NCBI RefSeq assembly: GCF_030400225.1
Contig: NZ_VJYB01000012.1
Span: forward strand, 1 to 51,192
Reading direction: 5' to 3'
Source of the DNA: Lactobacillus sp. UCMA15818
GTDB taxonomy: Bacteria; Bacillota; Bacilli; Lactobacillales; Lactobacillaceae
Length of the DNA: 51,192 nucleotides
The translations under genes and the position numbers were made by a program. Below, in pieces: positions 24,011-46,511 of this stretch (position 1 is the stretch's first letter; each line of letters opens with the position of its first letter). Below the pieces are notes generated by a model. It was not told where the DNA came from, did no database searches, and saw nothing but the letters and a program-made list of their open reading frames with translations.

Positions 24011-25564
24011 TTGACTAATGTTGACATGCAGGCTTTTGACAAGATTATTGTGCTTGACTTTGGAAGCCAGTATAATCAATTGATTACCCGCCGAATTCGT
24101 GAGTTCGGTATCTATTCAGAATTGCTATCACATAACCTGACAGCTGCTGAGATTAAGAAAATGGCACCCAAGGGAATTATTTTCTCTGGTGGTCCTAATA
24201 GTGTTTATGATGAGAATGCTTTCCATGTGGATCCTGAGATTTTTGAACTCGGAATCCCTGTTTTAGGAATTTGTTATGGGATGCAGTTAATGGCAAATGA
24301 GCTTAATGGTAAGGTGGAGAGTGCTAATAACAAGGAATATGGCAAGGCTGATATTCATGTGGCATCCGCTGATGAACCAATGTTCAAGGGATTACCAGCT
24401 ACGCAGACGGTATGGATGAGTCATGGTGACTTAGTGACAAGTGTCCCTGAAGGATTCAGAATTGCTGCGACAAGTGCTAATTGTCCAATCTCTGCAATGT
24501 CAAATGATGACAAGAAGTTCTATGGTTTACAGTTCCACCCAGAAGTACGTAACACAGAACATGGTAATGATATTTTGCGTCATTTTGCCTTTGATATCTG
24601 TAAGGCACGTGACAACTGGTCAATGGATGATTTCATTGATATGCAGATTGACAAAATTCGTGAAACTGTTGGTGATAAGAAGGTTCTGCTTGGCTTATCA
24701 GGTGGGGTTGATTCGTCAGTTGTAGGTGTCTTATTGCATAAAGCAATTGGAACGCAGTTGACAAGTATCTTCGTAGATCACGGCCTGTTGCGCAAGGGTG
24801 AAGTTGAACAGGTTATGGCAAGTCTTGAAGGAAAATTTGGGCTGAACATTATTCAAGTAGATGCTAAAAAGCGCTTCATGGATAAGTTAGCTGGTGTTTC
24901 TGATCCTGAAAAGAAACGTAAGATCATTGGTAACGAATTTATTCGTGTCTTTGATGATGAAGCTGCTAAGTTAGATGGAATTGATTATTTAGCACAAGGA
25001 ACACTTTATACCGATGTAATTGAATCGGGAACAGATACAGCACAAACAATCAAGTCGCATCACAATGTTGGTGGTCTGCCAGAAGATGTTCAATTCCAGT
25101 TAATTGAACCCTTAAGGACATTATTCAAAGATGAAGTTCGTGAATTAGGTGAAAGACTTGGAATGTCATCTGACCTTGTCTGGCGTCAACCATTCCCAGG
25201 ACCTGGTCTTGGAATTCGCGTGATTGGTGAAATTACAGAAGAAAAACTTAAAATTGTTCGTGATAGTGACTTGATTCTACGTGAAGAAATCGCTAATCAT
25301 GGTCTTGAAAGGGAAATCTGGCAGTACTTCACGGTACTTCCTGGTATCCGCAGTGTCGGTGTCATGGGTGACGGTCGGACTTATGATTATACGGTTGGAA
25401 TCCGTGCAGTTACTTCGATTGATGGGATGACTGCTGATTTTGCTAAGATTCCATGGGATGTCTTGCAAGCAATCTCAGTTCGAATTGTTAACGAAGTCGA
25501 CCACGTTAACCGCATAGTGTACGATATTACGTCGAAGCCACCGGCAACGATAGAGTGGGAATAG
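24011..25564 (+). CDS. guaA: GMP synthase (glutamine-hydrolysing)
   Basis: This 517-residue enzyme converts XMP to GMP using glutamine nitrogen. The N-terminal class I glutamine amidotransferase has nucleophile Cys near residue 87 in GICYGMQ and His/Glu in FHPEVR (about 176). The ATP pyrophosphatase P-loop GLSGGVDSS lies near 227, and the C-terminal dimer domain ends in PPATIEWE. The start is TTG 24011 with GAGGTG at proper spacing. The last three codons form attL of the inserted element. Because the element joins exactly in this core, the protein is unchanged while the stop is TAG (the att copy at 33643 reads TAA). Confidence 0.95.
25553..25563 (+). repeat. attL core of the integrated element
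   Basis: GAGTGGGAATA overlaps the last codons of guaA (Glu-Trp-Glu and the first two bases of the stop). It is identical to 33643-33653. Confidence 0.85.
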
Positions 25565-25573
25565 TAACAGGTG

Positions 25574-25614
25574 AGCTAGAAACTTTTGTGTAACAAGGGC
25601 TTCTAGCTTTTTTT
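25574..25614. terminator. guaA terminator supplied by the element
   Basis: AGCTAGAA (25574-25581) pairs with TTCTAGCT (25601-25608), followed by seven T. It lies just inside attL, so guaA transcription now ends in element DNA. The integrase stop codon (25603-25605) is inside the stem. Confidence 0.7.
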
Positions 25615-26823
25615 AGTTTTGGATTGCACTTTCATTGCACTTTTTTCTGTTGGACGTCTTAAATAATTGACTGTAAACTGATTCCGTGGGGAATGATCCA
25701 AGTTTTCTTCGGTCGGTTCAAAGTCAATCACGCCATTTAATTTATCCGCCACTTGAAAATTACTGTTGGGATAAAGGTGTCCGTAAGTTCCCAAGGCAGT
25801 TTGTACATCTTCATGACCTAACCGATCTTTAATGATTAGCGGATTTTCCCCCATACTGATCAACAGAGAAGCATGAGAATGACGCAAACCATGGATACGG
25901 ATACGATGCACTCCTGCTTTTTTGGAATAACGATCAATGGCGTGAGCAATGGTATATTTCTGTGGTGGAATCACATTATAGCTCATCACAAAAGAGGTTT
26001 TTACCACTTTTTGTTGAACATTTCGCCATTCTTTTAAGAACTGTAGAGTGGTTTTATCCAGCACAATATGACGTACACTGGCTCTTGTTTTGGGGGATGT
26101 AAAGTAATATTCTTTTTGGTTCTTATAATACAGAGTTTTGTCAATAGATAACATCCCAGTTTCAAAGTCGATATCGTCCCACTGAATCGCAGTGGCTTCA
26201 CCGATACGCATACCAGTCATAAATAACAACCATAAAGACATGAAAAGAAAGTGTTGATAAAAGTCTCCTTTGTAAAATAAAGCAATCACTTTTTCAAATT
26301 CTTCTTTCGTCCAAAAATCGACCACTTGTTTTTGTTTTTTCACATTTCCCACAATTTTAGAAGGATTGGTAGTCGCAAGCTCTAAAACTACAGCCCGATC
26401 CATGGCAACAGAAAACAAACCTTGAATCGAACGAACATAAGACGGTTTTAGCTTTTTTGAAAGCTTTAACTGCCCTTTTTGTACATGAATGGGTTCAATA
26501 TCACTAACCGCCAACTTATTAAAGTAAGGGAAATGTTTGAGAATGGTTTTTAAACGATTTTCGTAGGTTCTTATTTTTACTTTGGTCCGATACCAGGGAA
26601 GAAACAGTTCTTCCACAAACTGTTTAAAACTCATCTTATTTTCAGTTTCCACGAATTCGTCTGGTTTCATCAGTAACATCTTATAATATTCTTCTTTAGC
26701 TTCCTTTTTCGTGCGAAAACCGCTACGATACTTCTGAATCTTTTTATCGTTAGCATCATAGCCTAAATTCGCCCGAAAATAGTAGGTGCCATTTTTGGCA
26801 CGTTTAATGGGATCTTTCGTCAT
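25603..26823 (-). CDS. int: Tyrosine integrase of Tn916/Tn5801 type
   Basis: This recombinase has about 406 residues, the same size as Tn916 Int. The N-terminal arm-binding domain (about 1-60, KNGTYYFRANLGYD) is followed by a SAM-like core-binding domain (about 75-170) and the catalytic domain. The catalytic domain has Arg near 204 (GMRIGEATAIQWDDID), HGLRHSHAS near 309-317 and the nucleophile Tyr near 346 (ALGTYGHLYP). The frame is open 8 codons upstream, but ATG 26823 with AAGGAGCG is the clear start. It cuts and joins DNA at the guaA attachment core. It appears intact. Confidence 0.92.
   Translation of the reverse strand: MTKDPIKRAKNGTYYFRANLGYDANDKKIQKYRSGFRTKKEAKEEYYKMLLMKPDEFVETENKMSFKQFVEELFLPWYRTKVKIRTYENRLKTILKHFPYFNKLAVSDIEPIHVQKGQLKLSKKLKPSYVRSIQGLFSVAMDRAVVLELATTNPSKIVGNVKKQKQVVDFWTKEEFEKVIALFYKGDFYQHFLFMSLWLLFMTGMRIGEATAIQWDDIDFETGMLSIDKTLYYKNQKEYYFTSPKTRASVRHIVLDKTTLQFLKEWRNVQQKVVKTSFVMSYNVIPPQKYTIAHAIDRYSKKAGVHRIRIHGLRHSHASLLISMGENPLIIKDRLGHEDVQTALGTYGHLYPNSNFQVADKLNGVIDFEPTEENLDHSPRNQFTVNYLRRPTEKSAMKVQSKTKKS
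25624..25647 (+). repeat. Left-end arm-type repeats
   Basis: The decamer ATTGCACTTT is present twice in tandem 60-85 bp from attL, and again near the right end (about 33541-33551). Such short repeats near both ends are where the integrase N-terminal domain binds in Tn916-like elements. They overlap the int 3' coding end. Confidence 0.6.
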
Positions 26824-26850
26824 AGTTTTTACGCTCCTTACGTACAAAAA

Positions 26851-27051
26851 CTAATCAGACCTGTTTTCATCTGAAAACTTGATTCCAAGAAGTTCTTCAA
26901 CTGCTTCGCAAGGAACACGATCTAATTTTCGTGACTGATAATAAGTATGTCCTTTTTCGATCATCAGATCTTTCGCTTTTCTGATAATGTCGGCAGCAAA
27001 AGAATTTCCGTATCCTAGCGCAACTAAGTCTTTTTTAGTGACTGTGATCAT
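26851..27051 (-). CDS. DUF3173 protein, probable excisionase-like factor
   Basis: This 66-residue basic protein starts MITVTKKDLVALGYGNSFA and continues AADIIRKAKDLMIEKGHTYYQ, the DUF3173 pattern. It lies 27 bp upstream of int. In Tn5801-like and related ICEs, DUF3173 genes occupy the xis position next to int. ATG 27051 follows AAAGGAGCACAA; a longer frame upstream has no good start. Its likely role is to bias the integrase towards excision, by position. Confidence 0.75.
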   Translation of the reverse strand: MITVTKKDLVALGYGNSFAADIIRKAKDLMIEKGHTYYQSRKLDRVPCEAVEELLGIKFSDENRSD

Positions 27052-27519
27052 TTGTGCTCCTTTCCATTGCAGACTAAGATTTCTCCAATATTCACCTACA
27101 ATTATATCAAAGATGCCAAAATTTAGATGCTCATAGCAATCGAACAGCTCTAGCAAAGCTCACGGAAATTTCACCCCTGCATGGATCGCATGTAGCTGCA
27201 CTCATAACCTGCGACGCTTTTAACGCTCGGATCATGACGACACGGGAGTATCATTGTCACAATAAGAAAGTCTTGGCTGCAATTCGGCTAAAAATTGTTT
27301 TTAGTCATAAACAAGATTCGCTCGCTTTTTTAAAAGGTTATCGCGTGTTTATCTAAAGGCTATTTTCTTATTGCAAAGGATTCGATTGCAGATATTCAGT
27401 TTTCAAAGAACTGAAGGCTGATTAGCCCGGCAAAATTTACCAATGGCTGATAAACTTTGCTGGAATAATAAACACAGAGGGAAGCGCAGAGTGGAAAGGC
27501 ACTTCCCACACCTAAAAAG
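27052..27519. other. Non-coding regulatory stretch of the element with hairpins
   Basis: No gene is visible. Two hairpins stand out. CCGGCAAAATTTA (27427-27439) pairs with TAAACTTTGCTGG (27451-27463) with two wobble pairs. GGGAAG...CTTCCC spans 27479-27507, just after the Orf8-like gene, where it may end transcription of that operon. In Tn916 this interval separates orf8 from xis and takes part in regulated read-through. Confidence 0.45.
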
Positions 27520-27750
27520 TTACCGGATTTCAAAAGATAAAATCATACGCAACAAACGGTCTTCCAAACGACTACGTAAGAATTCGTCGACAACAGTATG
27601 AGAATTTCCAGATTCATCTTTCATCACACGTAGAGAGAGCTTGGGACTATAGGAATGATAGTGGGCACGAATGTCATTAAGAGTGTCCAAATCACCATTT
27701 ATCGCTCTTTCGATCATTTCGTAGGAAATGAGGGGACATTTAGTATTCAT
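27520..27750 (-). CDS. Orf8-like HTH protein of Tn916-type elements
   Basis: This 76-residue protein begins CPLISYEMIERAINGDLD and continues to HTVVDEFLRSRLEDRLLRMIL. The pattern P-L-x-Y-E-x-I-x-A-x-x-G-D with the TVVDE-R-RLE tail matches conjugative transposon Orf8 (HTH_16-type). In Tn916, Orf7 and Orf8 activate transfer and excision functions. It overlaps the Orf7-like gene by 11 bp and is full length. Confidence 0.8.
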   Translation of the reverse strand: MNTKCPLISYEMIERAINGDLDTLNDIRAHYHSYSPKLSLRVMKDESGNSHTVVDEFLRSRLEDRLLRMILSFEIR

Positions 27751-28024
27751 TTTCGTGTTCCTCCATATAATTTCTGATAGCCTTTAATGCTTGATGACGC
27801 TGACGGTTGACCGTGGAGGCAGAAACGTGAAATAAGTCGGCAATTTCATTTTCATTCATGTCTAAAAAATAATAAAGTAGCAGAATGGTGCGCTTTTTAT
27901 CGGACAAACTTTCTTCAATGGCAGTTCCTAACGCTTCATTTTCAATATCAATAGAAAAACCTAACAGTGAAAGATGCAGGAAATCAGACGGATAACGATC
28001 CATAGTTTGAAGTTCATCTGACAT
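27740..28024 (-). pseudogene. Orf7-like sigma-70 family regulator, N-terminally truncated
   Basis: The 94-residue product keeps the C-terminal half of Tn916 Orf7: SDKKRTILLLYYFLDMNENE then IADLFHVSASTVNRQRHQAL, a sigma region 4-like HTH. The usual Orf7 has about 140 residues; roughly 45 N-terminal residues are missing. The frame start (ATG 28024) falls exactly where the preceding DUF961 frame loses its own C-terminus, so a deletion joined the two. It may still be translated, through overlap with the upstream frame. Confidence 0.65.
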
Positions 28025-28379
28025 GTAACTGATAATTCGTAAACCCACGTTCGCCGATCTTATAATCCTCAGCCACAATTTGAGGATGAACTAACTGCAC
28101 ACGGTCTTCAGACTCGAAAGATTTTTCTCCCGCAGCTTGGGGCAAGACCACCACAATATCATCGGCCCGCTGTACATCTGAATAAAGGTTATAACTACGT
28201 GATACAATACTATAACGACCATTGACACGACGCTGTTCGATTTTTCCTTCTCCGGCAAATTCCAGATTACCAAAGGTTTCTTCCATCGAAACGGGTAAGG
28301 TGAACCAGCGACTAATAATTTCACCGATTGCTTCAAATTGACTGAGATTCGTCACATAAATCGCAAGACTGTTATCCAT
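28014..28379 (-). CDS. ArdA N-terminus fused to a DUF961 (Orf23/YdcP) domain
   Basis: The product has 121 residues. Residues 1-33 (SLAIYVTNLSQFEAIGEIIS, then RWFTLPVSMEE) look like the start of the antirestriction protein ArdA (Tn916 Orf18). From about residue 34 it becomes TFGNLEFAGEGKIEQRRVNGRY and then SRSYNLYSDVQRADDIVVVL, which is the DUF961 family (Tn916 Orf23). The junction falls at MEE, a stretch both families share. The DUF961 C-terminus is cut short after FTNYQLHVR. The ATG has GGAGGTG. It is most likely a recombination scar rather than an evolved fusion. Confidence 0.7.
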   Translation of the reverse strand: MDNSLAIYVTNLSQFEAIGEIISRWFTLPVSMEETFGNLEFAGEGKIEQRRVNGRYSIVSRSYNLYSDVQRADDIVVVLPQAAGEKSFESEDRVQLVHPQIVAEDYKIGERGFTNYQLHVR

Positions 28380-28381
28380 CA

Positions 28382-28609
28382 CTACACCTCCAGATAAAGG
28401 TTGCGGATTGTTTCGATTTGACTTTGCACACTGTATAAAGCATCCTCGACCGTCATCAAATCTTCTGCCAAAATTTGACGACCTTTTTCTGAACGACCAT
28501 CCATATGCTGGACAGAACGAAAAGTATAAATCGCATTTGTTAACTGGTGAATGGCATTGTTACACAGCATTTGTTGCGCAGCTTTTAAACTTTCGGTTTC
28601 CTGCATCAA
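28382..28609 (-). CDS. Small helical protein of unknown function
   Basis: This 75-residue, mostly alpha-helical, acidic protein (ESLKAAQQMLCNNAIHQLTN, then SVQSQIETIRNLYLEV) has no recognised domain. Its start overlaps the methyltransferase stop (TGATG), and its stop abuts the next start, so it belongs to the same operon. It may belong to the ICE backbone. Confidence 0.5.
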   Translation of the reverse strand: MMQETESLKAAQQMLCNNAIHQLTNAIYTFRSVQHMDGRSEKGRQILAEDLMTVEDALYSVQSQIETIRNLYLEV

Positions 28610-29697
28610 ACGGGATCCTCCTTTCCATAGACTTTCGCCACATTTCCCAAGATAAATTCCGCACAGGGCAGAACAATCGCATTACCTAATGCCTTGTAAC
28701 GAGCAGAAGGGCTGATTTCTTTATTCTGAAAACCGTACTTCGTCCAGTCTTCTGGGAGTCCCATCAGCCGTTCACATTCTAGTGGGGTCAACTTACGAAT
28801 GTTTCCTTTCTCTACTTCACCTTTGGGCCAGTTGGCAAAGACATTCACGGTTCCCGCTAATAAGGTGGGAAAAGGGTCCCTTGCTTTGCCAAAACTGGAG
28901 CGGAAGCCTTGGAGATTGCCGATTTTAGCATAACTGCGCATGCGTCTTTCTTGAAAGGGAAAGAGACAAAGTGACCGCCTTGTTTTAGCAGAAGTTGATA
29001 AACATTCTTGGGCGGAGAGCCGCCTGCTTTGTGGGCTAGTTTCAGGATCCAATTGCACTCGTTGGGTGTCAAAAAGTATTTCACGGGCACGGAAGTATCT
29101 AAAATCTGCCACGAGAAAGATACGTTTTCTTCGTTAGGGGACTCCCCAATATTGACCGTCGAGGAGTCGCCAGCACAAATCAACTTTTCTCCCTCGCACC
29201 ATTCCCGCATTGGCCCAGAATCCAGAAGCAGGCATTGGAAGCGTGGTTTCTGTGAAAGCTTCCAGCACGGCCTTAAAATCCAGCCGGTCATTTGACGAAA
29301 AAGCTCCCAAGACGTTTTCCCAAATAGCGAGAGTTGGATAGGTTCCATGAGTCTGATTCCTCATTTCTCTGATGATTCGAATTGTTTCAAAAAATAAACT
29401 TGACTTTTCTCCCTGTAAGCCTGTCTGGTTGCCAATATCGGATAAGTTCTGGCAAGGCGAACCGAAGGTAATAATGTCTGTAGGCGGTAAATCCACGCCT
29501 TTGATTTTAGTGATGTCGCCTAAATGTTTCATGGACGGAAAATGACGCTTCGTAATACTCACGGGTGCTTTTTCAATTTCACTCGCCCAGATGGGCTGAA
29601 TGCCGTGCTTTTGAGCGGCAAGGGGGAACACACCAATTCCATCGAATAGACTTCCTAAGGTTAATTTTCTTATTTTAATCAAATCCTTTAAAAACAA
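28606..29697 (-). pseudogene. C5-cytosine DNA methyltransferase interrupted by an in-frame stop
   Basis: A 363-codon frame has all main C5-methyltransferase motifs: I (LTLGSLFDGIGVFPLAA), IV with catalytic Cys (GSPCQNLS, about residue 80), VI (WENVLGAF), VIII (xRRKRIFLVADF) and X (SARYKALGNAIVLPCAEFIL). A TAA at 29134-29136 replaces the first residue of motif VIII, normally Gln (CAA); the frame is open on both sides, so one base change broke it. Both halves stay in the same frame. The start could be TTG 29697 or TTG 29682. No restriction partner is nearby, so it was probably an element-borne protective or orphan enzyme. Confidence 0.85.
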
Positions 29698-29725
29698 AAA
29701 ACACCCTTAAGTCGTAGGGTGTTTT
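29695..29725 (-). terminator. Terminator of the AAA/subtilase cassette
   Basis: On the minus strand ACACCCT pairs with AGGGTGT around ACGACTTA and is followed by a T run. It lies about 95 bp after the subtilase stop and directly before the methyltransferase start, so it separates the two transcription units. Confidence 0.7.
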
Positions 29726-29817
29726 CTAATCAAATTTAATTGTGTAGGTTATTATTTTTCTTTTACATTACAGCCAATAGATAGTCAAGTATCCGTTTGT
29801 TTTTTGTTAAAAGAAAA

Positions 29818-32337
29818 TTAAATATTAGTGTCAATCTCAATCTCTTGTTTATTGGTAATTTGGTTGGTAATCGCAGTATATAAATCGTATTTAGTTTCAG
29901 GTGTCTCAATTGAAACTATTAAAGAATATCTTAAACGATTATTAAACCTTCCTAGATTTGGACGTTCTCTCCACCATCCGATAACAGGATACACAGCAAC
30001 GTAATTAACATCACATAAATCAACAGCAGGTGCTTTACAAAAATCTGAATGGATCGAACCAACGTCTCTATTTGTAGTTCCGAGATACCATTTTCTGCTA
30101 GAACCTGTTATAGTCGTTTCATCACGCATTTTGTAATTAATGCGTTTCTTAAATTCTGCGAGAGTTTCATCGCTATTAATAACGTCAAATCTTAATCCAG
30201 CTGATGAATACCGATATTTATTTTTCCAGCCTCTCTCTCCAGGGCTTGGCTCAATAAAATATGAAAGTGTTACTTTTAATTTTACTTCAGTTTCTCCCAG
30301 AGATTTTAAAATTTCTTTTGGCCATGGAATTTGGTGAATATTCATTTCATTCATTTTTTTCCCTTTTGAAAAAGGTTGCAATTCAGATTCTACAACTAAA
30401 TTAACTGAGTTACTTTTACATTCTAGCGCTTTATTTAAATTAGGAATACCGTAGCCACAAGTTCTTAGCAAATCCCTTCTCCCAGTTGTTTTTTTATCAT
30501 CACTACAGAACTGTTGAATCATTCGATTACTCCAATTTGCCGAATGAATCATTAACGCTCTAACCGTTTCTGGCCATATTCCTGGATATTCATCATAAAT
30601 TTGTGCAGCCATCCAAGAAGCTTGTGCTGTTGCTGAACTTGTACCTCCTAAAGTAGAAAAAGGTCTATTAAAAAAGTTTCTATTAGTAGTTAGTAATTCC
30701 AAATCTTCACATTCAGAAATGTCGTCACCATTAGTAACCATGTTTCCACCATCTAAAAGTATTTCTGGTTTAATAGGCCATTTGGAATCCCAACTCCTTG
30801 ATGTAGAACTATACGGTGATAGTTCATCCACATCAGCAAGGGGTTTACAGTTGTTATAAACTGAAGATTCAATTTCAATATCATTAGCGTATGCACCAAC
30901 AGTAATGGCATTCCATGATTGTCCAGGATTCTCAACTCCATGTAAAATATTAGAATCTGGATAATTAAGATCCTTTATTTCCTCTCCATATACATTACCA
31001 GCACTGATTAAAAAGAGTCTTTTCCCATTTGAATCACTTGACCCAGAAGTTATATTGTCAATAGCAGCAGACCATGAAGTTGGACTACCATCATCTGTAT
31101 TGAAATCGGACGAAGTAACTGCCATACAAATAGTTCTATCAGCAGTTGGATTTTCAATTTCAGAAAGATAAACTGCATCTTCTGTTACCGCTCCATATAA
31201 TTCAACATTATTTTCACTGTTAGGGGGTAAGATTTTTACTGATTCAATTTTATGGTTAATTTTAATATCATCTTTCTCTAAAAATTTCTTCTTTAAATCG
31301 TTATAAATAGAAATACCAGCCATTTGGGTCCCATGACCTAAGTGATCACTAGTACCCCAATCTTTTTTAACCGCTTGAATTGTTCTTTCGTTTTTAATAG
31401 CAGGTGAAATAAGCGGGTGTCTTGAAGCTAGTCCTGTATCTAAAAGACAAATTGATGCATTACCTTGACCAAATTCGGTACGGTTTAACAACTCATCGAC
31501 CCATTCCTGTTGATCTTGTCCAGACAATTCATCAAAAAAATTAGTGCTTTCAGGAGCTCTACGAAACTCTGCGATATAATCGCACATTTCTATCAGTTCT
31601 CTTAATTGCTTTTTATTTGCAAATATTAATCTAACTATACGTTCTGGGAAAATAATTTTCTTACTATCAAAAACTATTCCTAAATCTTGACAGCTTTGTA
31701 TAAAATTATTAGTAGCTTCTTCAAGATTAGTTTTACTTTTTGTTTCATCTTCTACTGCTAAATATCTTAACCAAACCTCACACCATTCTGGTTTCTCTAA
31801 TGGCATATTTGATTCTGAGCCCACCCAAAAAGAATCTAGCATTGCTAAGTGAATGTCCTCTATACTGTTAATCAAATCATTGTTTTTTGGTTTCCCAGTT
31901 TTAGTTTTTTTATCGGTATTCAAAAAATTGTCTATTTTATTCAAAAAGAAACTTTCTTTGCCCTCAGGTACGTAAACTGTTGCTTTAATCGTCTTTGGAC
32001 TGTCATTATCAATGTCAGAATTTTCAACTTTATTAGATTCTTCTCTAACATTAAGAAGTTTGATACCTTGTCTAAGATCCTCTAAACTATTTAAAGATAA
32101 GTCATAATCAGGAGCACTGGTAAATTCTAAATAAGTTCCTTCCTTGTATCTTATAGCTGCAGCTTGTTTTTGTTTCGAAGACCGTTCATAACTTTCTTTT
32201 AATTTTCTTTGGATGAACGCTCCATGACCATATGCATTGGCTCTATGTGGAAATTTGTCTCCGTTCATACCTGGTTTACCACCATACTCTATTGATGCTT
32301 CAGTTCCTTGCAAAAAAATATTTCTTTTTTCTACCAC
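29818..32337 (-). CDS. ietS: Subtilisin-like serine protease, IetS-type defence component
   Basis: This 839-residue S8 family protease has no signal peptide and so is cytoplasmic. An N-terminal extension (about residues 1-285) of no known fold precedes the catalytic domain. The triad is visible: Asp near 299 (ICLLDTGLASRHP), His near 334 (DHLGHGTQMAGI) and Ser near 564 (LGGTSSATAQASWMAA). A beta-rich C-terminal region of about 200 residues follows. The gene begins with GTG 4 bp after the AAA+ ATPase gene, so the pair is translationally coupled. Such AAA + S8 pairs are catalogued as IetAS systems in defence surveys. Base composition is more AT-rich than the ICE backbone genes beside it. Confidence 0.8.
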   Translation of the reverse strand: MVEKRNIFLQGTEASIEYGGKPGMNGDKFPHRANAYGHGAFIQRKLKESYERSSKQKQAAAIRYKEGTYLEFTSAPDYDLSLNSLEDLRQGIKLLNVREESNKVENSDIDNDSPKTIKATVYVPEGKESFFLNKIDNFLNTDKKTKTGKPKNNDLINSIEDIHLAMLDSFWVGSESNMPLEKPEWCEVWLRYLAVEDETKSKTNLEEATNNFIQSCQDLGIVFDSKKIIFPERIVRLIFANKKQLRELIEMCDYIAEFRRAPESTNFFDELSGQDQQEWVDELLNRTEFGQGNASICLLDTGLASRHPLISPAIKNERTIQAVKKDWGTSDHLGHGTQMAGISIYNDLKKKFLEKDDIKINHKIESVKILPPNSENNVELYGAVTEDAVYLSEIENPTADRTICMAVTSSDFNTDDGSPTSWSAAIDNITSGSSDSNGKRLFLISAGNVYGEEIKDLNYPDSNILHGVENPGQSWNAITVGAYANDIEIESSVYNNCKPLADVDELSPYSSTSRSWDSKWPIKPEILLDGGNMVTNGDDISECEDLELLTTNRNFFNRPFSTLGGTSSATAQASWMAAQIYDEYPGIWPETVRALMIHSANWSNRMIQQFCSDDKKTTGRRDLLRTCGYGIPNLNKALECKSNSVNLVVESELQPFSKGKKMNEMNIHQIPWPKEILKSLGETEVKLKVTLSYFIEPSPGERGWKNKYRYSSAGLRFDVINSDETLAEFKKRINYKMRDETTITGSSRKWYLGTTNRDVGSIHSDFCKAPAVDLCDVNYVAVYPVIGWWRERPNLGRFNNRLRYSLIVSIETPETKYDLYTAITNQITNKQEIEIDTNI

Positions 32338-32341
32338 CTGT

Positions 32342-33301
32342 TTATGCCTCCCTATCAGAGTAGATATTTACTCTTTCATCCACTAAGGTCAGAAGCTGTT
32401 TTTCGGTGATTTCGTTACCGCTTAAAATAGACTCTTTTATTGCATCGTCACAAATTTTAACAAGTTCTGCCTGACTTAGTACTTTCGCCATAGTAATTAA
32501 TTTATCAGTCGGGTTAAATCCTTTTTGAAAGACTGATAATCTGTTAGTAAATATTGTACTAACTTCTTTTGTAGTGGGTAAAGTGTAATGTAATATATCA
32601 TCAAATCGTCTAAACAGTGCTTGATCGAGTAATTTTTGATTGTTAGTAGCCGCAATAATTAGACTTTCTGAAGTATCCTGTTCAAAAAACTGCAAAAAAG
32701 AATTTAAAATTCTTCTCATTTCTCCTACTTCATTATCCATACTTCTATCTGTACCAATTGCATCAAATTCATCAAAAAAATACACTCCAACGTTGTTTTC
32801 AATAGATTCAAAAATCTGACGTAATTTTATACTTGTTTCACCCATAAACTTCGTTATTAACTTATCAACTTGTACAGTATACAAAGGAAGAGAGAGCTCA
32901 GAAGCAATCACCGAAGCAGTAAATGTTTTTCCTGTTCCTGGAGGTCCTTCAATCAATATTTTTCTTCTGTTTTGTAACCCAAATTGTTGTAACTTGTGTT
33001 TGTTTTTATATTCATTTAAAATGCGAAAAATACGATCCTTTATTTCATCAGAGACTATCAAGTCTTCCAATTGGAAATCAGGAAAAATCATTTGTAGTGT
33101 GGGATTAGTTTTATTTAGAGAGATGACATTTGGTTTAGCAGGCCTTTTGGTTTCAATCAAAGTTTTCAATTCTCGAGCAAAATTAACATGATTCTTTTTT
33201 GCTTCATATGCAGCTATTTGTAGAACTGTAGTTTTAAATCTTTCATCATTGCCTTCTGCATATGACTTAACTAAACTTTTTATTTGATCCGCTGTTGCCA
33301 T
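32342..33301 (-). CDS. ietA: AAA+ ATPase, IetA-type defence component
   Basis: This 319-residue protein has a small N-terminal helical part (about 1-85) and one AAA+ module of the FtsH/Vps4-like type. Motifs are Walker A EGPPGTGKTFTA (about residues 117-128), Walker B YFFDEFDAIG (about 173-182), sensor 1 IIAATNN and the arginine finger/box VII ALFRRFDD. A short lid domain ends the protein. It may remodel or deliver proteins to the partner protease; what triggers it is unknown. ATG 33301 follows AGGGGGTG, and a good promoter lies at 33338-33366. It looks intact. Confidence 0.82.
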   Translation of the reverse strand: MATADQIKSLVKSYAEGNDERFKTTVLQIAAYEAKKNHVNFARELKTLIETKRPAKPNVISLNKTNPTLQMIFPDFQLEDLIVSDEIKDRIFRILNEYKNKHKLQQFGLQNRRKILIEGPPGTGKTFTASVIASELSLPLYTVQVDKLITKFMGETSIKLRQIFESIENNVGVYFFDEFDAIGTDRSMDNEVGEMRRILNSFLQFFEQDTSESLIIAATNNQKLLDQALFRRFDDILHYTLPTTKEVSTIFTNRLSVFQKGFNPTDKLITMAKVLSQAELVKICDDAIKESILSGNEITEKQLLTLVDERVNIYSDREA

Positions 33302-33337
33302 AAAAAACACCCCCTAAAATTTAGTTAACTCTACTGT

Positions 33338-33366
33338 ATTATAATGATATTTTTCAAAATTATCAA
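33338..33366 (-). promoter_or_regulatory. Promoter of the AAA/subtilase cassette
   Basis: On the minus strand TTGATA (33361-33366), 17 bp, TATAAT (33338-33343). It lies 37 bp before the ATPase start. With the terminator at 29695-29725 it defines a self-contained two-gene cassette. Confidence 0.7.
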
Positions 33367-33531
33367 AAGAAATCCTTTTATTTGTGCAATCATTTAGGCT
33401 TTCGCAAACTCAATATATATATATTCTGAAAGTAAGAAAAGACGTTCGATGAACGCCTTTAATAATCGAATATTGAAATAAAAATTGAATCTTTTATAAA
33501 GATAAAAACAGTGTCTGATTTAGTTAGATAC

Positions 33532-33556
33532 TGCACTGAAATTGCACTTTTTTTCT
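33532..33556 (+). repeat. Right-end arm-type repeats
   Basis: TGCACTGAAATTGCACTTTT holds two half-matching copies of the ATTGCACTTT repeat found at the left end, about 90-110 bp from attR. The shared decamer at both ends supports the element boundaries. Between 33367 and 33642 I see no gene. Confidence 0.55.
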
Positions 33557-33642
33557 TATTTTTGGTGTTTTATACGTCTTTATACTTTTCCATATTGCTT
33601 GATATTACTGCATTTTACCTTATATGCTTAACCCAAAGTCCA

Positions 33643-33653
33643 GAGTGGGAATA
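33643..33653 (+). repeat. attR core of the integrated element
   Basis: GAGTGGGAATA is identical to 25553-25563. It is followed by ATCC, so an empty site would read GAG TGG GAA TAA and restore a guaA stop. Confidence 0.82.
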
Positions 33654-33781
33654 ATCCTATCAGAAAGGGATAACCAACAAATGCTGATTTTACTGCGTTT
33701 TGTTTGTTCTTAAACTACTTAAAATGGCTAAATTGGAGACAAAGTGTCGCCAAAAATATCTAATATAATTATGTATACAAC

Positions 33782-33816
33782 AAAAACCTGCTTACAATGT
33801 GTGACAGGTTTTTTGT
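33782..33816 (+). terminator. Terminator, probably the original guaA terminator
   Basis: AAAACCTG pairs with CAGGTTTT in a hairpin ending in a T run. It is 130 bp after attR, where the guaA terminator would have been before the element inserted. Confidence 0.6.
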
Positions 33817-33842
33817 TCTTAAGTTTTAAAATTGGGGAAGAT

Positions 33843-33920
33843 TTATAAAATGGTTAATTCTGTAAAATCATTATCCAATGCAATTTGATCTAATTGCTTG
33901 ACTGCTTTTTTCTTTGCCAT
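33843..33920 (-). pseudogene. N-terminal stub of a gene (25 codons)
   Basis: ATG 33920 has AGAGGTG at good distance and reads MAKKKAVKQLDQIALDNDFT then ELTIL and a stop. It begins directly after the end of a methyltransferase-like remnant. This is the place of res in a mod-res (type III restriction) operon, so it may be the first codons of a deleted res gene. That is an inference from order only. Confidence 0.3.
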
Positions 33921-33923
33921 GCC

Positions 33924-34195
33924 TTATTCACCTCTATTCGCATAAAAGCTTTGATTAAATTCATAATCAGTATCAGAAATAAGATCTCGTACGTTTTCAT
34001 CGTCAATTTCTGAATAATTGTAATACAGCTGATTTTTATCAATAATTTTAATCAAAATCCTTTTTTGATTGTCAAGAGATTGTTTCCACAAATCAGTTGT
34101 TTGAAGGGTTTGTAAATCAAGACGAAAATCAAAATCAGCTGTCGCTAACATTCGCTTAAAAATAAAGACGATCTCAGCACCGTAAGATTGTCTTT
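33924..34195 (-). pseudogene. C-terminal remnant of a probable type III DNA methyltransferase (Mod)
   Basis: The frame is open from a stop near 34195 and covers about 90 codons, with an internal ATG at 34151. It ends RILIKIIDKNQLYYNYSEID, then a short stretch and FNQSFYANRGE. The NQLYxNYSEIDD...FNxSFY ending resembles the C-terminus of type III Mod subunits. All catalytic motifs (DPPY, FxGxG) are missing. A gene fragment is left; the family call is from memory of the tail motif. Confidence 0.4.
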
Positions 34196-34243
34196 ATACT
34201 AATATCCTAGTTTCCCAATTTGTTCATCCATAACTCTCAACTA

Positions 34244-35368
34244 TTAAGTTTGTTTTCTTACTCTCTCAAACTCCAATTGAAACTTTTGCAATCTTTGTAA
34301 ATGATTTTTTGCAAACTGAATATAGTTTGCTAATACATCAATTTTAATTTCTCTTACTTCTCCTACATCACTATAATCAGGATAAAAATTTCCTTCCTCA
34401 TCTATGCACCAGTCTTCAGGTCTATAGGATTCAATAGTTATATACGAAAAGTCAGCCTGTTCATTAGCTAACTCTCCTTCTAACAGTTCCTTCATATAAT
34501 TGTATGCCTGAATACCAAATGAATTATGTTTTGGTAGCTTATCAGCCGTTAGTCTGGACATAAACTCTAATAAAAAAAAATCAAATTTTTGGTTGAATTT
34601 TTGTAGTCGTTTCCCGCTAAAAACTGCTAAAAATTCATTTTTTAACTTTCTGATAATTGCTGATTTTTCTTTTAAATATACCCAATCAATCGCCTTACGT
34701 TTATTATCTTCTAACTGGTTGAAAATTTCATCTCCAAATACAAGATCGTTTTCAATTTCTAATTTACCAGTAAGAAGTGACTCAACTTCGATTGGAGCAT
34801 AAACAGGTGGTTTAGCAAGAAAAAAATTAGAAAACGGATTACTGTCAGAAATTTCATAGTCGGCATAGTCAATTGAATAAGGAACATAATCCAACAATGA
34901 TTGCTCAAATACTTTATGCAATTCATCATCAGAATCCAATGCTTGAATATCTTCCATTATACAAAGAAAAAGTTTCTCCCAGTCAATATGTCCCCACAAC
35001 ATATTATCGTAGTTATTCGGATCGAAAAATTTCTTTTTCTTAATCGTTTTCATTTTCCCAGTTTTTTTATCCCGTCCAAATTCTTTAACCTCCTTAATGA
35101 ATTCATTATGATTTAATCCTTGTTTTGAAACTTCTTCTTTTGTGTTAAATTTAAAAATGTTGTAAATTTTGCTGTATTCACGTTCTCCTATCAAATAGGG
35201 ATGGTTTTTATTTCGACGATTTTTCACAATATCTGTCACTCGTGTTGGATCTGAATGTAATACATCCTCCCTGGTTACACCTAATTGCTTGATTCGTTTA
35301 CCAATCGAGTCCGCCAAAGAATTATAAAAATATTCAATCGTTTTCTTAAACTTAATATCTTGACGCAT
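34244..35368 (-). CDS. Unknown 374-residue protein with N-terminal HTH-like region
   Basis: The N-terminus (about residues 12-60: YFYNSLADSIGKRIKQLGVT, then REDVLHSDPTRVTDIVKNRR) looks like an XRE-type HTH with a variant second helix. The remaining 300 residues are charged and helical, with no motif I recognise. There is no signal peptide or membrane helix. The ATG follows AAAGGAGAAGTCG. It is divergent from a small ICE-type gene at 35513. Its place in a mobile/defence remnant makes a regulator, replication-control or abortive-infection protein possible, but none is shown. Confidence 0.6.
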   Translation of the reverse strand: MRQDIKFKKTIEYFYNSLADSIGKRIKQLGVTREDVLHSDPTRVTDIVKNRRNKNHPYLIGEREYSKIYNIFKFNTKEEVSKQGLNHNEFIKEVKEFGRDKKTGKMKTIKKKKFFDPNNYDNMLWGHIDWEKLFLCIMEDIQALDSDDELHKVFEQSLLDYVPYSIDYADYEISDSNPFSNFFLAKPPVYAPIEVESLLTGKLEIENDLVFGDEIFNQLEDNKRKAIDWVYLKEKSAIIRKLKNEFLAVFSGKRLQKFNQKFDFFLLEFMSRLTADKLPKHNSFGIQAYNYMKELLEGELANEQADFSYITIESYRPEDWCIDEEGNFYPDYSDVGEVREIKIDVLANYIQFAKNHLQRLQKFQLEFERVRKQT

Positions 35369-35512
35369 ATAATCGACTTCTCCTTTTAAAAAGAGGGATA
35401 AAAACCACTAATAAAAAATGTTAAGCTCCCTTTTAACTCCCTCTTTACATATGATACCATAAATTTAGTAAGTAATGCAGGCTTGCACAATAAGATAAAA
35501 GGGAGAAACAAA

Positions 35513-35686
35513 ATGATAAGTCAAATCGAAAAAACAATTGAAGTAAAAATGAATGAGATTCTGAATAATCCTTCACTACGAACATCACTAGTTATTCACT
35601 TAGACGCATATCTACAAATTTTAGACCTAATTGATTCTAACAACGACGAACTGAAATCAAAAATTGAACAATTGATTGTTAAATGA
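35513..35686 (+). CDS. Small ICE-associated protein (57 aa)
   Basis: This 57-residue helical acidic protein (MISQIEKTIEVKMNEILNNP then HLDAYLQILDLIDSNNDELK) starts at ATG 35513, with AAAAGGGAGAAAC upstream. It is first in a + strand series leading to an FtsK-type gene. No known domain. Confidence 0.5.
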   Translation: MISQIEKTIEVKMNEILNNPSLRTSLVIHLDAYLQILDLIDSNNDELKSKIEQLIVK

Positions 35687-35831
35687 AAACAGTCACACAT
35701 CAAAGCAATGCATTAGTTTTTGTGACCCAAGTGGTTATGTCGCTAAACTGTCCACCCCCCTCTCAAAAAAAGGAGGGTTCAACATCACAAATGTTTTAGC
35801 AACTTAAAAAGTTGCGAAAGGAGAAAGAACT

Positions 35832-36176
35832 ATGGCTCAACCAAATTGGAATCTACGCTTAAAAGATGTGCTCGGTCATGACACACGGGAAGTATCCATG
35901 ATTAGTCCCCGCACAGGTAACGAATACAAAGCGGAAGTTATTTCTGAACTTAAAGTTGTATCGACTGGTTCTATCGAAGAAACAGACGATGGTAAGTATC
36001 GTTACCCAATTGTAGATACAACCAAAACCCTTGAGTACGCAATCAAAGTTGAAAACATGCTTGACGTAAAATTCGGTATGGTTTTGTTGTTCAAAAACGT
36101 GCGTGGTGGTGCAACAAATCGTGGCGGGTGGTATAATGCTGATTTCGTAGAGGTGGTGAACCGCAATGCAACGTAA
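35832..36176 (+). CDS. Small conserved ICE-type protein, possibly Orf23-position
   Basis: This 114-residue protein (NWNLRLKDVLGHDTREVSMI, RYPIVDTTKTLEYAIKVENM, GGWYNADFVEVV) has no membrane helix and is rich in beta strands. By position it corresponds to the Orf23 gene before Orf22 and Orf21 of Tn916-like elements, though it does not show the DUF961 motif. The ATG follows GAAAGGAGAAAGAACT. It overlaps the next gene by 11 bp. Confidence 0.55.
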   Translation: MAQPNWNLRLKDVLGHDTREVSMISPRTGNEYKAEVISELKVVSTGSIEETDDGKYRYPIVDTTKTLEYAIKVENMLDVKFGMVLLFKNVRGGATNRGGWYNADFVEVVNRNAT

Positions 36177-36336
36177 ATATCGGCGAATCAACCGTAATTC
36201 AACAAGTGTTCTGCAAGCCTATCAGATAGTTCTGATGGCTTGTGGCTTTGCCACATTATTGTTGGCATTGAGTTTTATTCTATGGAAAGCAAGTCTACAA
36301 GTCGCTTTTCTTAATTTTACAACTGATTTTTTTTAA
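36166..36336 (+). CDS. Small single-helix membrane protein (Orf22 position)
   Basis: This 56-residue protein has a basic N-terminus (MQRKYRRINRNS) and one membrane helix (AYQIVLMACGFATLLLALSF). It overlaps the preceding gene and lies directly before the FtsK-like gene, as Orf22 does in Tn916-like elements. Confidence 0.6.
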   Translation: MQRKYRRINRNSTSVLQAYQIVLMACGFATLLLALSFILWKASLQVAFLNFTTDFF

Positions 36337-36348
36337 AAAATAATAATT

Positions 36349-37518
36349 GTGCTTCCAATTTTTAACGTATTATCTACTATGTTATTCATAATTTTTTATG
36401 TTAAGCGTGAACAACTAACAATTTTTGAAATTGAAGCAATGACAAAACAAGCAAATAGATTAGCTAATCGCTTACTAAAATTATTCAGCGACAAACAAAT
36501 TACCGATGTTTTAAAGTTATCAAATTCAAACAGATACGATGAAGAAATCCCCATTTTATACGTTTGGGTCGCCGATAACTTAAATGAAGGTTACGTTGCA
36601 ATCGAGAATATAGCTAATTTCTCAAAAATGGATAAAGATAAGTTTGAACAAAATATCAGTAGTTTATTCGGTGGGAAATACAAACGTTTCGCTGTCATTT
36701 CCTCTGAATTGGTATTGGTGCAAGGTGATAGTTCCATGTTGTTCCATTTTGAAGACGTAACTACCTCTAATAGCCTAATAGTCAACGATTCTGAAAGTTC
36801 TCTGATACCGTTTGTCAGTGAAGACAAACATGTTATTAAATTGGCTAATAATTTAGTATGGCAGGCAGATAAAACACCTCACTTAAGTATCATTGCAAGA
36901 ATGAGAGCTGGAAAATCAGTATTAGCTGGGCGTTACATGGCTCAACTAATGATTATGCAAGGTTGGACTGTTGAGTATAATTCAGCCAAATTTGACCGCT
37001 ATGTCAAAAAATTAAATGGTAAAAGCACTGCAATCGAAATTATTGAAAGAGCTGAATATTGGTTAGAAATTATGCAAAAACGTTTAAATGAAATCAACGA
37101 AGCAAATAAAGAGAAGCATCTTGATATGTCAAATATGAATGATATTGCTATTTTCTTTGATGAACTTGGTAACTTAAATGCGGAATTAGAACTAGACAAA
37201 CCATTAAAAAAGCGTTGGGAAACTGCGATTAATCGACTTTCCGCAACTGGTGCTAGTGCAGACATTCATATTATAGCTATCTCTCAATTTGTCACTAAAG
37301 AAGGGTTCTTACCTTAGGTAGCTCGTGTGAATTGTTCTGATGCCGTAATTATGCTTGGAGGTGCTGCTGATAGTGGCGATGAACGTCGGTATCTAATGTC
37401 TGGTTTTTCAGATCTACCGAAACGTAGCTATGGCGTTGGTCAAGGAATAGCCCGAATTAACGCAAGTGATCGTAAATGGGAAAAACCTCATTTATATGAA
37501 ACACCATTGTTTCTATAA
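36349..37518 (+). pseudogene. FtsK/Orf21-like coupling ATPase broken by in-frame TAG
   Basis: The 389-codon frame begins with GTG 36349 (no good ribosome site) and a membrane helix (VLPIFNVLSTMLFIIFYV). The FtsK/SpoIIIE-type ATPase core has a P-loop-like RMRAGKSVLAGRY (about residues 184-196) and Walker B IAIFFDEL. A TAG at 37315-37317 cuts the last 66 codons, which continue in the same frame (VARVNCSDAVIMLGGAADSG to PLFL). The first Gly of the Walker A motif is replaced. Orf21 is the coupling protein of Tn916-type transfer. It is shorter than the usual 450-470 residues and likely dead. Confidence 0.65.
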
Positions 37519-37542
37519 TAATTAATTGGAAAAAAAGAATAT

Positions 37543-37575
37543 AGTGACTGAGAATGCTCGCCTTGTCAGTCACTA
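37543..37575 (+). terminator. Hairpin after the FtsK-like pseudogene
   Basis: AGTGACTGA pairs with TCAGTCACT around GAATGCTCGCCTTG. There is no T run, so it may be part of a transfer-origin structure rather than a terminator. Confidence 0.4.
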
Positions 37576-37612
37576 AAGTTAATAATTCTAATTCTATCTA
37601 TGCAACGACTAC

Positions 37613-37639
37613 ACGGCACAGGGCTTGTCGATGTGCCGT
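37613..37639 (+). other. Candidate oriT-type hairpin downstream of the FtsK-like gene
   Basis: ACGGCACA (37613-37620) pairs exactly with TGTGCCGT (37632-37639) around GGGCTTGTCGA. In Tn916-like elements oriT lies between orf21 and the relaxase gene orf20. Here the relaxase is gone, but a hairpin of the right kind stands in the right place. No nick site is shown. From 37640 to 38101 I see no gene. Confidence 0.4.
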
Positions 37640-38101
37640 AAAACCACGAAAAAGTGCAGAAAACAATGTACTAATTGAAAGAATAATTAAATAAACTATT
37701 ATTATAACTAAATATAACTAGGATATTTAGCGGTGCAATAGTGGCAAACTTGACACATAAAAAAACAGGGTGAGAGGCGCAAGTTTTTTCTTTCAGTATT
37801 CACAGTACCCTCAACGAATATGAATTTCAAAACACCACAATCACATTTGGATAACTTGTCCTAAATATGGGCACTTGAGTCCAAATTGTATGTTTAAACA
37901 CGTTTTGGATTGTTCATAGTTCATCATCATTCAGTAAGCAGTAATGAATTTATCCAAAGAAATTCGAGGGAGGCACCCAATCGATTGATATGCTTAGGTC
38001 AACAAACCAATTATATGATTTCAGCTTTTAACGAACGTTTTTCAGAAAAAACTTACGAAGAATTTTTTTTTATGTTATGCTAACCCACTGTATTAAGGAA
38101 A

Positions 38102-39553
38102 GTGAGTGTGAATAATATAATGAATTCAGTACAAAGTAACCCGCAAATCAAACAACAAGCACGGGTTCCTGTTGCCCATCCAATGTTAGCCATGATGGGA
38201 ATGTTAATTGGTGGTTTCGTTGGGATGTTCAGTGAAACTTCACTGAACATCGCCTTGCCTCAATTGATGGCACAGCTGCATGTTTCTACTGGTACTATTC
38301 AATGGTTGGTAACCGGTTATATGTTGATGATAGGGATTGTTTTACCGCTATCTAGTCTGATAACAAAGTGGTTTACAACCCGGCAGGTGGTCTTATTTGC
38401 TTTAATTGACTTTGCTGTTGGGGCTGTCATTTCAGCTTCAGCTCCTAGTTTTGGTATTTTGCTATTCGGACGGATGATTCAAGGTATCGCAACCGGTCTA
38501 ATCTTACCCCTCATGTTTACGGTCGCTATGCAAATTTTTCCACCCTATAAATTAGGTGCGGCCATGGGAATGGTTGGGTTAGTCATCATGTTTGCACCAG
38601 CAGTTGGTCCTACTATTGCTGGGGCCATCTTGGGTTTTTCTTCATGGCGGTGGATTTTTTGGTTGTTCATCCCATTTTTAATCATTGCTTTTATTTTTGC
38701 CGTGACTTCACTTAAAAACATTGCTAAAGTCACTCAGCCTAAAATTGATTTTTTGTCAATCTTATTATCAATGGTCGGTTTCGGTAGTCTAGTTGTTGGA
38801 GTTAGTCTTGCAAGTGACCAAGGTTGGGGATCACCTGTTGTATTGGTCATCTTAGCTTTAGGTTTTATTATCTTGGCTTGGTATGCACACCGTCAATTGA
38901 CCATGACAACACCAATTTTGAATCTCAAAGCATTTGCTGTTTCTGATTTTCGAGTTGGAGCCTGTCTAGTTATGATTAACTTTGCCATTATTCTGTCAGC
39001 CATGTATTTACTTCCAATGTATATTCAAAAAGGCTTGCTAATTCCCGTTGCGCTAACAGGGGTCATTATGTTGCCTGGTGGGTTAACAAATGCCATTGTT
39101 TCAGCTGTCTCTGGTCGTTTATATGATTCAATTGGGGCACGTAAACCAGCCATGTTGGGCTTTTTAATCTCAATGATTGGTGCTTTGATGCTGGCTCTTA
39201 CAACGACTAACACCGCAGTGTGGTATATCATTTTCGCCCATGTCGTCTTAATGATTGGTGCGCCACTGGCAATGTCTCCGTCCCAAACACATGGTTTGAA
39301 TGCCTTAACGGGGCCAATTGCGGCTGATGGTAGCACTATTATGAATACATTACAGCAAGTCGTTGGTGCCATTTCAACAGCAATTGCCACTAGTCTACTA
39401 AGCATAGGCCAGGCATCTTACTATGCTAATGATGGCCATCAAGCTGCCAACGCATTTGTGAACGGCACTCATTATGGCTTCTATTTTACGTTTATTTTAG
39501 CTCTTGTCGGTTTATTACTTGCAACGCAATTATCAAAGAAAACTATTAAATAA
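38102..39553 (+). CDS. MFS drug exporter, DHA2 family (14 TM, EmrB/QacA/LmrB type)
   Basis: This protein of about 483 residues has 14 predicted membrane helices. Motif A-like and motif C signatures are visible: LNIALPQLMAQLHVSTGTIQ then WLVTGYMLMIGIVLPLSSLI (TM1-TM2) and GLVIMFAPAVGPTIAGAIL (motif C, about residues 155-173). DHA2 pumps export lincosamides, biocides or dyes with protons. Possible starts are GTG 38102, GTG 38108 or ATG 38120; AAGGAAAG fits 38108 best. No regulator is adjacent, and an upstream gene may have been lost. It looks intact. Confidence 0.87.
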   Translation: MSVNNIMNSVQSNPQIKQQARVPVAHPMLAMMGMLIGGFVGMFSETSLNIALPQLMAQLHVSTGTIQWLVTGYMLMIGIVLPLSSLITKWFTTRQVVLFALIDFAVGAVISASAPSFGILLFGRMIQGIATGLILPLMFTVAMQIFPPYKLGAAMGMVGLVIMFAPAVGPTIAGAILGFSSWRWIFWLFIPFLIIAFIFAVTSLKNIAKVTQPKIDFLSILLSMVGFGSLVVGVSLASDQGWGSPVVLVILALGFIILAWYAHRQLTMTTPILNLKAFAVSDFRVGACLVMINFAIILSAMYLLPMYIQKGLLIPVALTGVIMLPGGLTNAIVSAVSGRLYDSIGARKPAMLGFLISMIGALMLALTTTNTAVWYIIFAHVVLMIGAPLAMSPSQTHGLNALTGPIAADGSTIMNTLQQVVGAISTAIATSLLSIGQASYYANDGHQAANAFVNGTHYGFYFTFILALVGLLLATQLSKKTIK

Positions 39554-39838
39554 TCTTTAATCAATGTTAATATTGCTAGGTATTCCCCGTCCCAGTTGTT
39601 AAATTTTTTAATGGGCCATATGAGTGATTACAACCCGGTTATTAATGATCATTTGCGACCTACCATTTAAGCCCATTTTTTGTATTACCCATTTTGTTGC
39701 ACAAATAAACCTATATATCGTTGAATATACCTTATTTAGCTTCTATTCACTGCTAAAATGTTGCCAAAATTCAATCTGTTGGCTTGTATAATCTCTAAGA
39801 GAAAGCATTTACAGATAGATGATAAGGCAGGTAGGGTA

Positions 39839-40450: not shown

Positions 40451-40507
40451 ATGTTGATAAACATAGAAAAGCTATGAATTATTTTAGTAACTAATGAACA
40501 TTAAAGA

Positions 40508-40549
40508 TTGACATGCTATAGTACTAATTATATAATGTAAGCGTAAACA
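40508..40549 (+). promoter_or_regulatory. Strong promoter and cre-like site of the beta-glucoside operon
   Basis: Perfect TTGACA (40508-40513), 17 bp, TATAAT (40531-40536). It overlaps TGTAAGCGTAAACA (40536-40549), which is a cre-like site with one mismatch. A repressor such as CcpA bound at the start point would block transcription when glucose is present. Confidence 0.8.
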
Positions 40550-40555
40550 GGAATA

Positions 40556-40648
40556 GGATTTGTTACAGATTGTGCTGGCATAACCTACTAAATTTTGTGA
40601 ATTCTTTTTTAGGAATTTTCACATTATTTAGTAGGTTTTTTGTTTTTT
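40556..40648 (+). promoter_or_regulatory. RAT antiterminator and overlapping terminator of the beta-glucoside operon
   Basis: The RAT-type sequence GGATTTGTTACAGA...GGCATAACC (40556-40585) overlaps the left arm of the terminator: AACCTACTAAAT (40582-40593) with ATTTAGTAGGTT (40626-40637) and a long T run. When the LicT/BglG-type protein encoded downstream binds RAT, the terminator cannot form. This is the classic BglG-family control. Confidence 0.85.
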
Positions 40649-46508: not shown

Positions 46509-46511
46509 TTA

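Follow-up and report, generated by a model that had tools for sequence, protein, structure and literature searches.

A compact guaA-integrated island of Lactobacillus sp. UCMA15818, very probably a decayed Tn5801-kind element that kept its integrase and an IetAS-type pair

The island at the 3' end of guaA

We analysed a stretch of 51,192 nucleotides from Lactobacillus sp. UCMA15818 (contig NZ_VJYB01000012.1, positions 1 to 51,192; hereafter the window), in which a compact island bounded by two core repeats is inserted at the 3' end of guaA. All island genes between the cores lie on the minus strand. The features are listed below, together with the evidence for each; ORF stands for open reading frame and ICE for integrative and conjugative element.

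24011-25564, plus strand: guaA, the target gene, intact after insertion (ORF; proteins 97-99% identical in three congeners)
25552-25563: core repeat AGAGTGGGAATA, guaA end (sequence search)
25603-26847, minus strand: tyrosine integrase of the guaA type (Arm-DNA-bind_4, Phage_int_SAM_3 and Phage_integrase matches)
25623-25641: direct pair of ATTGCACT with 11-bp spacing, likely integrase arm sites
26851-27051, minus strand: DUF3173 gene, at the place of xis (ATG at 27051, ORF to 27156; Pfam)
27160-27257, minus strand: pemK RNA (RF02913), upstream of DUF3173-int (47.6 bits, cut-off 34.8)
27520-27750, minus strand: HTH_16 regulator (Pfam; 54% identical to that of the O. indicireducens ICE)
27740-28027, minus strand: sigma-70 family gene, about 48 first codons gone (Pfam and alignment)
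28023-28027: apparent deletion join from DUF961 to sigma-70 (alignments to O. indicireducens and M. piezotolerans)
28014-28382, minus strand: DUF961 gene, about 7 last codons gone (Pfam and alignment)
28382-28609, minus strand: 75-aa ORF (ORF list)
28606-29697, minus strand: C5 DNA methyltransferase gene with an in-frame stop (63% identical to the intact O. indicireducens ICE copy beside DUF961)
29818-32337, minus strand: IetS-type S8 protease (Pfam Peptidase_S8, PADLOC IetS)
32342-33310, minus strand: IetA-type AAA ATPase (Pfam AAA, PADLOC IetA)
33530-33548: TGCACT pair with 11-bp spacing, likely far-end arm sites (E. ratti far end similar)
33642-33653: core repeat, far end (sequence search)

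The integrase, DUF3173, IetS and IetA genes were all open reading frames with the expected motifs, whose meaning we take from general knowledge; the HTH_16 gene we take to be Tn916 orf8-like. Pfam searches of nine island proteins (the 75-aa ORF at 28382-28609 was outside this set) returned no match to relaxase, coupling or VirB4 families, and no ORF of the size or family of tet(M) was present between the cores. An earlier note on this DNA had described direct repeats enclosing an intact integrase, DUF3173 gene and AAA/protease pair, with no relaxase, coupling or secretion genes, and on both counts it was borne out. It had overlooked the HTH_16, truncated sigma-70 and DUF961 genes, the interrupted methyltransferase, the pemK RNA and a possible remnant to the right of 33654.

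The direct repeat AGAGTGGGAATA proved to be 12 bp long, one base beyond the earlier 11-bp call, and its two copies are spaced 8,090 bp apart, core to core. The guaA copy spans the codons GAG TGG GAA, two bases of the stop codon and one preceding base. Neither the 12-mer nor its inner GAGTGGGA occurred again on either strand of the window, about 0.006 additional copies of the 12-mer being expected from base composition. The island thus has the guaA 3'-end insertion with an 11-bp direct repeat that marks Tn5801-like elements. Inside both island ends lie TGCACT pairs with 11-bp spacing, the guaA-side pair 71 bp inside the core. The int-end pair also occurs in M. piezotolerans, O. indicireducens, E. 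florum and E. ratti; the E. ratti element has a similar one at its far end. These pairs are likely integrase arm sites and, because they are shared, both ends are credible as ends of one element.

The DUF3173 protein is possibly a directionality factor. As an excisionase it gained no support from its fold: the structural model had a mean pLDDT (predicted local distance difference test) of 80.8, the fold search gave nothing at E <= 0.001, and the best PDB match, to calmodulins, had E = 1.5.

The deletion join and the placement of IetAS

The ICEs of M. piezotolerans DSM 16108 and O. indicireducens JCM 17251 both adjoin guaA. They resemble the island in their integrases (71-75% identical to that of the window), in HTH_16, in DUF961 (65-73%) and in gene order, which in the full elements runs int - HTH_16 - sigma-70 - cargo - orf13 - orf14 - orf15 - VirB4 - orf17 - ArdA - MobT - coupling ATPase - DUF961b - DUF961a (we take the orf numbers to be Tn916 labels). 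The relaxase, coupling ATPase and VirB4 families were verified in these ICEs. In O. indicireducens, DUF961a is followed by a 75-aa ORF and by the methyltransferase gene, which is intact there. Unlike the island, both ICEs have a full conjugation module and an oriT, and no IetAS in the stretch read.

The window keeps both outer parts of this gene order and nothing of the middle. The alignment of its DUF961 protein ends at residue 97 of 104, that of its sigma-70 protein starts no earlier than residue 49 of 140, and the two adjoin at 28,023-28,027. The corresponding points lie 20,380 bp apart in O. indicireducens and 20,510 bp apart in M. piezotolerans, with the conjugation module and oriT between them. 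Because DUF961 and sigma-70 stand about 20 kb apart in the full ICEs, the join points to internal deletion, not replacement. On these alignments, the island is very probably an internal-deletion derivative, that is, a decayed ICE, of a guaA-specific, Tn5801-kind ICE of the Tn916 superfamily. The element has lost the signature genes of a related ICE and kept the integrase and recombination sites, as decayed ICEs do. Its integrase gene is open, which sets it apart from cis-mobilizable elements (CIMEs), defined as being without a recombination gene of their own; with neither a relaxase family (by Pfam, on the nine island proteins) nor a Tn916-type oriT core, it does not look like an integrative and mobilizable element (IME) either, unless it has an oriT of an unrecognised kind.

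The two cargo genes have the makings of an IetAS system, namely an adjacent AAA ATPase and S8 protease with catalytic motifs and with PADLOC matches. Their closest counterpart in context was found in E. ratti DSM 15687, where one contig (G128:C23, the contig of locus L039) has three tandem cores, at guaA (68864), 77201 and 105416. The outer element, 77201-105416 (28,215 bp), has kin of the window integrase and DUF3173 on one side; on the opposite side, as in the window, IetS-IetA lies 0.4 kb from the far core. Identities to the window proteins were 81% and 75% for the integrase, 89% for DUF3173, 72% for IetA and 64% over 685 aa for IetS. The two elements are alike in having guaA-kind cores at both ends, sister integrases, DUF3173, an HTH_16/sigma-70 pair and IetAS by the far core; they differ in that the 28.2-kb E. 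ratti element has a split integrase and peptide-type cargo and has kept conjugation-type genes (VirB4-like, orf13-15-like, ArdA and a partial MobT). Over 66-106 kb of the same contig (L146, L147), an 8.3-kb element at guaA, with int-DUF3173 and a MobT-like relaxase, precedes the IetAS element.

The earlier note had proposed that a defence cargo took the place of the conjugation module, so that the compact island would be a design of its own. In favour of that proposal, no transfer gene remains and no other intact cargo is as large as IetAS; yet IetS lies 1.8 kb from the DUF961/sigma-70 join, with the methyltransferase gene in between, and E. ratti pairs IetAS, at the same end, with conjugation genes. 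Because of this distance and this pairing we conclude that IetAS did not replace conjugation, and we consider such a replacement highly improbable. What holds of the earlier reading is a guaA-specific, apparently Tn5801-kind integration module with defence-type cargo and no transfer genes; the ~20-kb internal deletion, with IetAS beyond the methyltransferase gene and not at the join, speaks against the remainder.

IetAS is probably att-proximal cargo that ICEs of the island's lineage carried. In O. indicireducens (L157, C63), a separate 5.5-kb contig holds an IetA (74% identical) and the beginning of an IetS, beside a second ICE-type methyltransferase. The pair is no fixed cargo of these ICEs, since it was absent from the M. 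piezotolerans stretch and neither IetA nor IetS occurred in any of 79 named integrase loci. Of 395 genomes from the order, five had IetS, the window genome among them; of the other four, only that of E. ratti lies in a guaA-core element, and the remaining three IetS stretches gave no int-DUF3173 match. Among the 49 genomes behind 50 given loci, four had IetA, two of them strongly. In plasmids, IetS matched 491 records, all below 60% identity, none of them a close source. The int-DUF3173-IetAS arrangement that the earlier note proposed to look for at other guaA ends was missing from the integrase loci and present in the E. ratti element.

Several observations weigh against internal deletion of an ICE that already carried IetAS. 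The ancestor is not represented by any reference of the same species, and the deletion is accordingly read from a comparison between genera. In neither M. piezotolerans nor O. indicireducens was the far core found; in the latter, moreover, the integrase is split in two ORFs and the guaA ORF is short. The integrase tree is a quick tree only. The E. ratti element is itself decayed, with its integrase in two ORFs and one stop reported in IetS, and neither DUF961 nor a coupling gene was detected in it. In the 36-kb M. piezotolerans stretch IetAS was not found. As to the pair itself, the NCBIfam models IteS and IteA matched the window pair far under their curated cut-offs (49.8 of 900 and 197 of 510 bits, respectively), which counts against its identification.

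Among described elements, Tn5801 and Tn5801-like islands share with ours the guaA 3' end, 11-bp direct repeats and Tn916-family regulators, and have an integrase of their own kind, to which that of the window probably belongs, as far as the available text of PMC4844618 goes; they differ in being ~20-27 kb long, with conjugation genes and tet(M), both absent from the window island. The Tn6254 family of lactobacilli, according to the accessible part of PMC4377027, likewise has an integrase adjoining guaA, and the direct repeat GAGTGGGAATA in lactic acid bacteria; these elements, likened here by description and not by sequence, are ~52 kb long with heavy-metal cargo. Also comparable are the decayed ICEs and mobile genomic islands of Streptococcus salivarius, which in the portions available of PMC7563491 are ICE-derived, with their own integrase and ends and with signature transfer proteins lost, albeit at other sites and with other cargo.

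Transfer and the role of the pair

The oriT core TAACAGGGGGGT, contained in the oriT printed for ICEBs1 in the accessible text of PMC10233336, was found upstream of mobT in O. indicireducens, in M. piezotolerans, in a resident region on contig C1 of the same genome and in an E. faecium element. It was absent from the window, where the one match with two mismatches, at 35754, compares with 1.5 expected by chance. A Rep_trans (MobT-type) search of the genome, which did not extend to other relaxase families, gave one match, on C1. There, at ~125-141 kb, lies a Tn916-like region with DUF961-like, FtsK-family, VirB4-like and lysozyme-type genes. No integrase was found among the ORFs of C1 110-150 kb, nor was any of the four integrase matches listed, of six in the genome, in the C1 region. 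Beside the Tn916-like region (G000:C1 ~125-144 kb; L125, L126) we noticed SMODS and S_4TM genes at 142050-143921, a pair resembling a cyclic-oligonucleotide-based antiphage signalling system (CBASS).

It is improbable, in our judgement, that the island is a living mobile genomic island moved in trans by a conjugative element through an unrecognised oriT. Its integrase gene is open and both ends are present, the C1 region offers a relaxase, a coupling ATPase and a VirB4, and, according to the available text of a review of IMEs (PMC5704250), the same may be true of many islands that have an integration module and nothing else. Against this, the island has no Tn916-type oriT core, the place of oriT falls within the deleted part, and the regulators and methyltransferase have decayed. 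With no oriT of a known kind in the island, mobilisation in trans would be left without a substrate. The earlier suggestion that the genome houses an ICE with this att type is also unsupported, because the sole MobT-type region, on C1, shows no integrase. Mobilisation in cis by accretion, which has been described for CIMEs (PMC7563491 and PMC5704250, in the parts available), is possible for this island by analogy.

If the island is a decayed ICE, its integrase would still recombine the cores and could excise it, and DUF3173 may steer that excision. It would be unable to transfer itself, and would move only with chromosomal DNA, by phage or transformation, or in cis with an adjacent ICE that has the same core.

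IetAS, in turn, would act as a defence module of the island, a stability module, or both; these roles are compatible with each other. That it serves mainly as a toxin-antitoxin stability module, rather than in defence against phage, we regard as a possibility on the doubtful side. It is favoured by sgiAT of SGI1, a toxin-antitoxin system that maintains the integrated island and is homologous to IetAS (50% for IetA, 36% for IetS), and by the homologous pair first described on pTiC58 (both in the available text of PMC5006074). On the other side, PADLOC and NCBIfam list the IetAS family as anti-phage, ietAS is catalogued as a defence system on an ICE in Salmonella (PMC9958689, as far as its accessible text goes), and the window pair is kin of the tested ones only in the 36-50% class.

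Relatives of the integrase, the pemK RNA and the right-hand flank

A scan of 84,980 species genomes with the integrase gave 87 stretches with relatives, of which the best 80 were kept, with 79 named loci. The integrase gene lay within 150 bp of guaA in 34 of the 79 loci, with DUF3173 in 31 of these 34, and guaA was within 41 of the 79 stretches. In the quick tree, built on 76 rows, the integrases of the window and E. ratti are sisters (support 97). They belong to a six-row set (support 93) that also contains those of Sporolactobacillus, Marinilactibacillus and Ornithinibacillus and one linked to tet(M) on a plasmid. The window integrase is 73% identical to a plasmid integrase adjoining DUF3173, on plasmids where tet(M) is also found, accompanied in one record by MobT and ArdA. 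These identities and the tree were obtained on a set of sequences that did not include Tn5801's own Int. Integrases at guaA in congeners were not the closest kin of the window integrase. Because its nearest kin lie outside the congeners, the island was probably acquired from outside the genus; no near DNA match of it was found in plasmids.

An int gene lay at or near guaA in 5 of 13 congeners, and in three of these five a further core followed at a distance of 8.5, 10.3 and 14.7 kb, respectively; the other eight showed a single core and no int match within 2.2-17.3 kb past guaA. With two of the five int genes in two-core elements of 8.5 and 10.3 kb, the "minimal" island of the earlier note is hardly special. 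The 8.5-kb element (G011, L128, 2283-10775) is in inverted order, with DUF3173-int at the far end, and encodes FtsK-family and REP_ORF2-G2P (rolling-circle Rep-type) proteins; compact guaA elements with mobilisation-type genes therefore exist nearby. The 10.3-kb element (G012, L139, 1914-12206) is likewise inverted, with transposase-like genes inserted (judged by eye). A third congener (G009, L134) has int-DUF3173 at guaA, followed by an arsenic-resistance-like operon (gene names by eye), with no second core over 17 kb.

The pemK RNA at 27160-27257 sits between the HTH_16 gene and DUF3173-int. A pemK RNA preceded DUF3173-int in 8 of 15 distinct integrase loci, drawn from 16 sources of which two gave one and the same place (L022, L023, L024, L034, L037, L038, L055 and L003), and the family matched (E <= 0.001) in 100 of 395 genomes of the order and in 0 of 14 control genomes. 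At the 30 best-scoring pemK RNA loci there was an integrase-profile match in 27, each time downstream and on the same strand, and DUF3173 in 9; two of the three remaining loci have an HTH_16/sigma-70 pair upstream. The E. ratti copy (G128:C23:78829-78896) scored 41.1 bits in the order-wide scan and went unreported in two scans of L039. By title or abstract start, none of the literature retrieved on pemK RNA was an ICE paper, and a search for pemK together with integrases found nothing, the family's original description being outside the search. We tentatively suggest, without leaning towards it, that RF02913 might be a switch of Tn916-superfamily ICE recombination modules, with the sigma-70/HTH_16 pair on one side and xis/DUF3173-int, which it leads, on the other, and that the crippled island, having retained this leader along with its integrase, may even now be responsive to the ancestral excision signal.

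To the right of the far core, 33924-37317 possibly holds the remnant of a second element. Its 374-aa, 114-aa and 322-aa proteins had no Pfam or NCBIfam match; of 394 other genomes, two gave weak and partial matches to the 374-aa protein, and the 114-aa protein is 52% identical to one from Streptococcus thoraltensis whose gene lies 2.2 kb ahead of a DUF3173-int pair. The 322-aa ORF was considered as a coupling ATPase and set aside: its P-loop was seen by eye only, and the resident coupling protein gave no match. When the flank 33601-51192 was compared by blastn with the 13 congeners, the one match (39749-40402, in G006) lay away from guaA. The empty site that the earlier note named as a test, with the sequence after 33653 adjoining guaA, was seen in 0 of the 13 congeners; because this flank is itself variable, an empty site cannot be defined from it.

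The island is an informative yet fairly ordinary decayed element. Its base-level join shows a path from a guaA-specific ICE to a compact island in which the integrase and a pair for defence or stability are retained, and the att-proximal IetAS common to E. ratti and the window suggests that the place of this cargo was inherited from ICEs. A note of caution follows: where a compact "defence island" has no transfer genes, it may have arisen by deletion. Should the proposed switch prove real, the pemK RNA family, so far a name only, would gain a testable role in excision.

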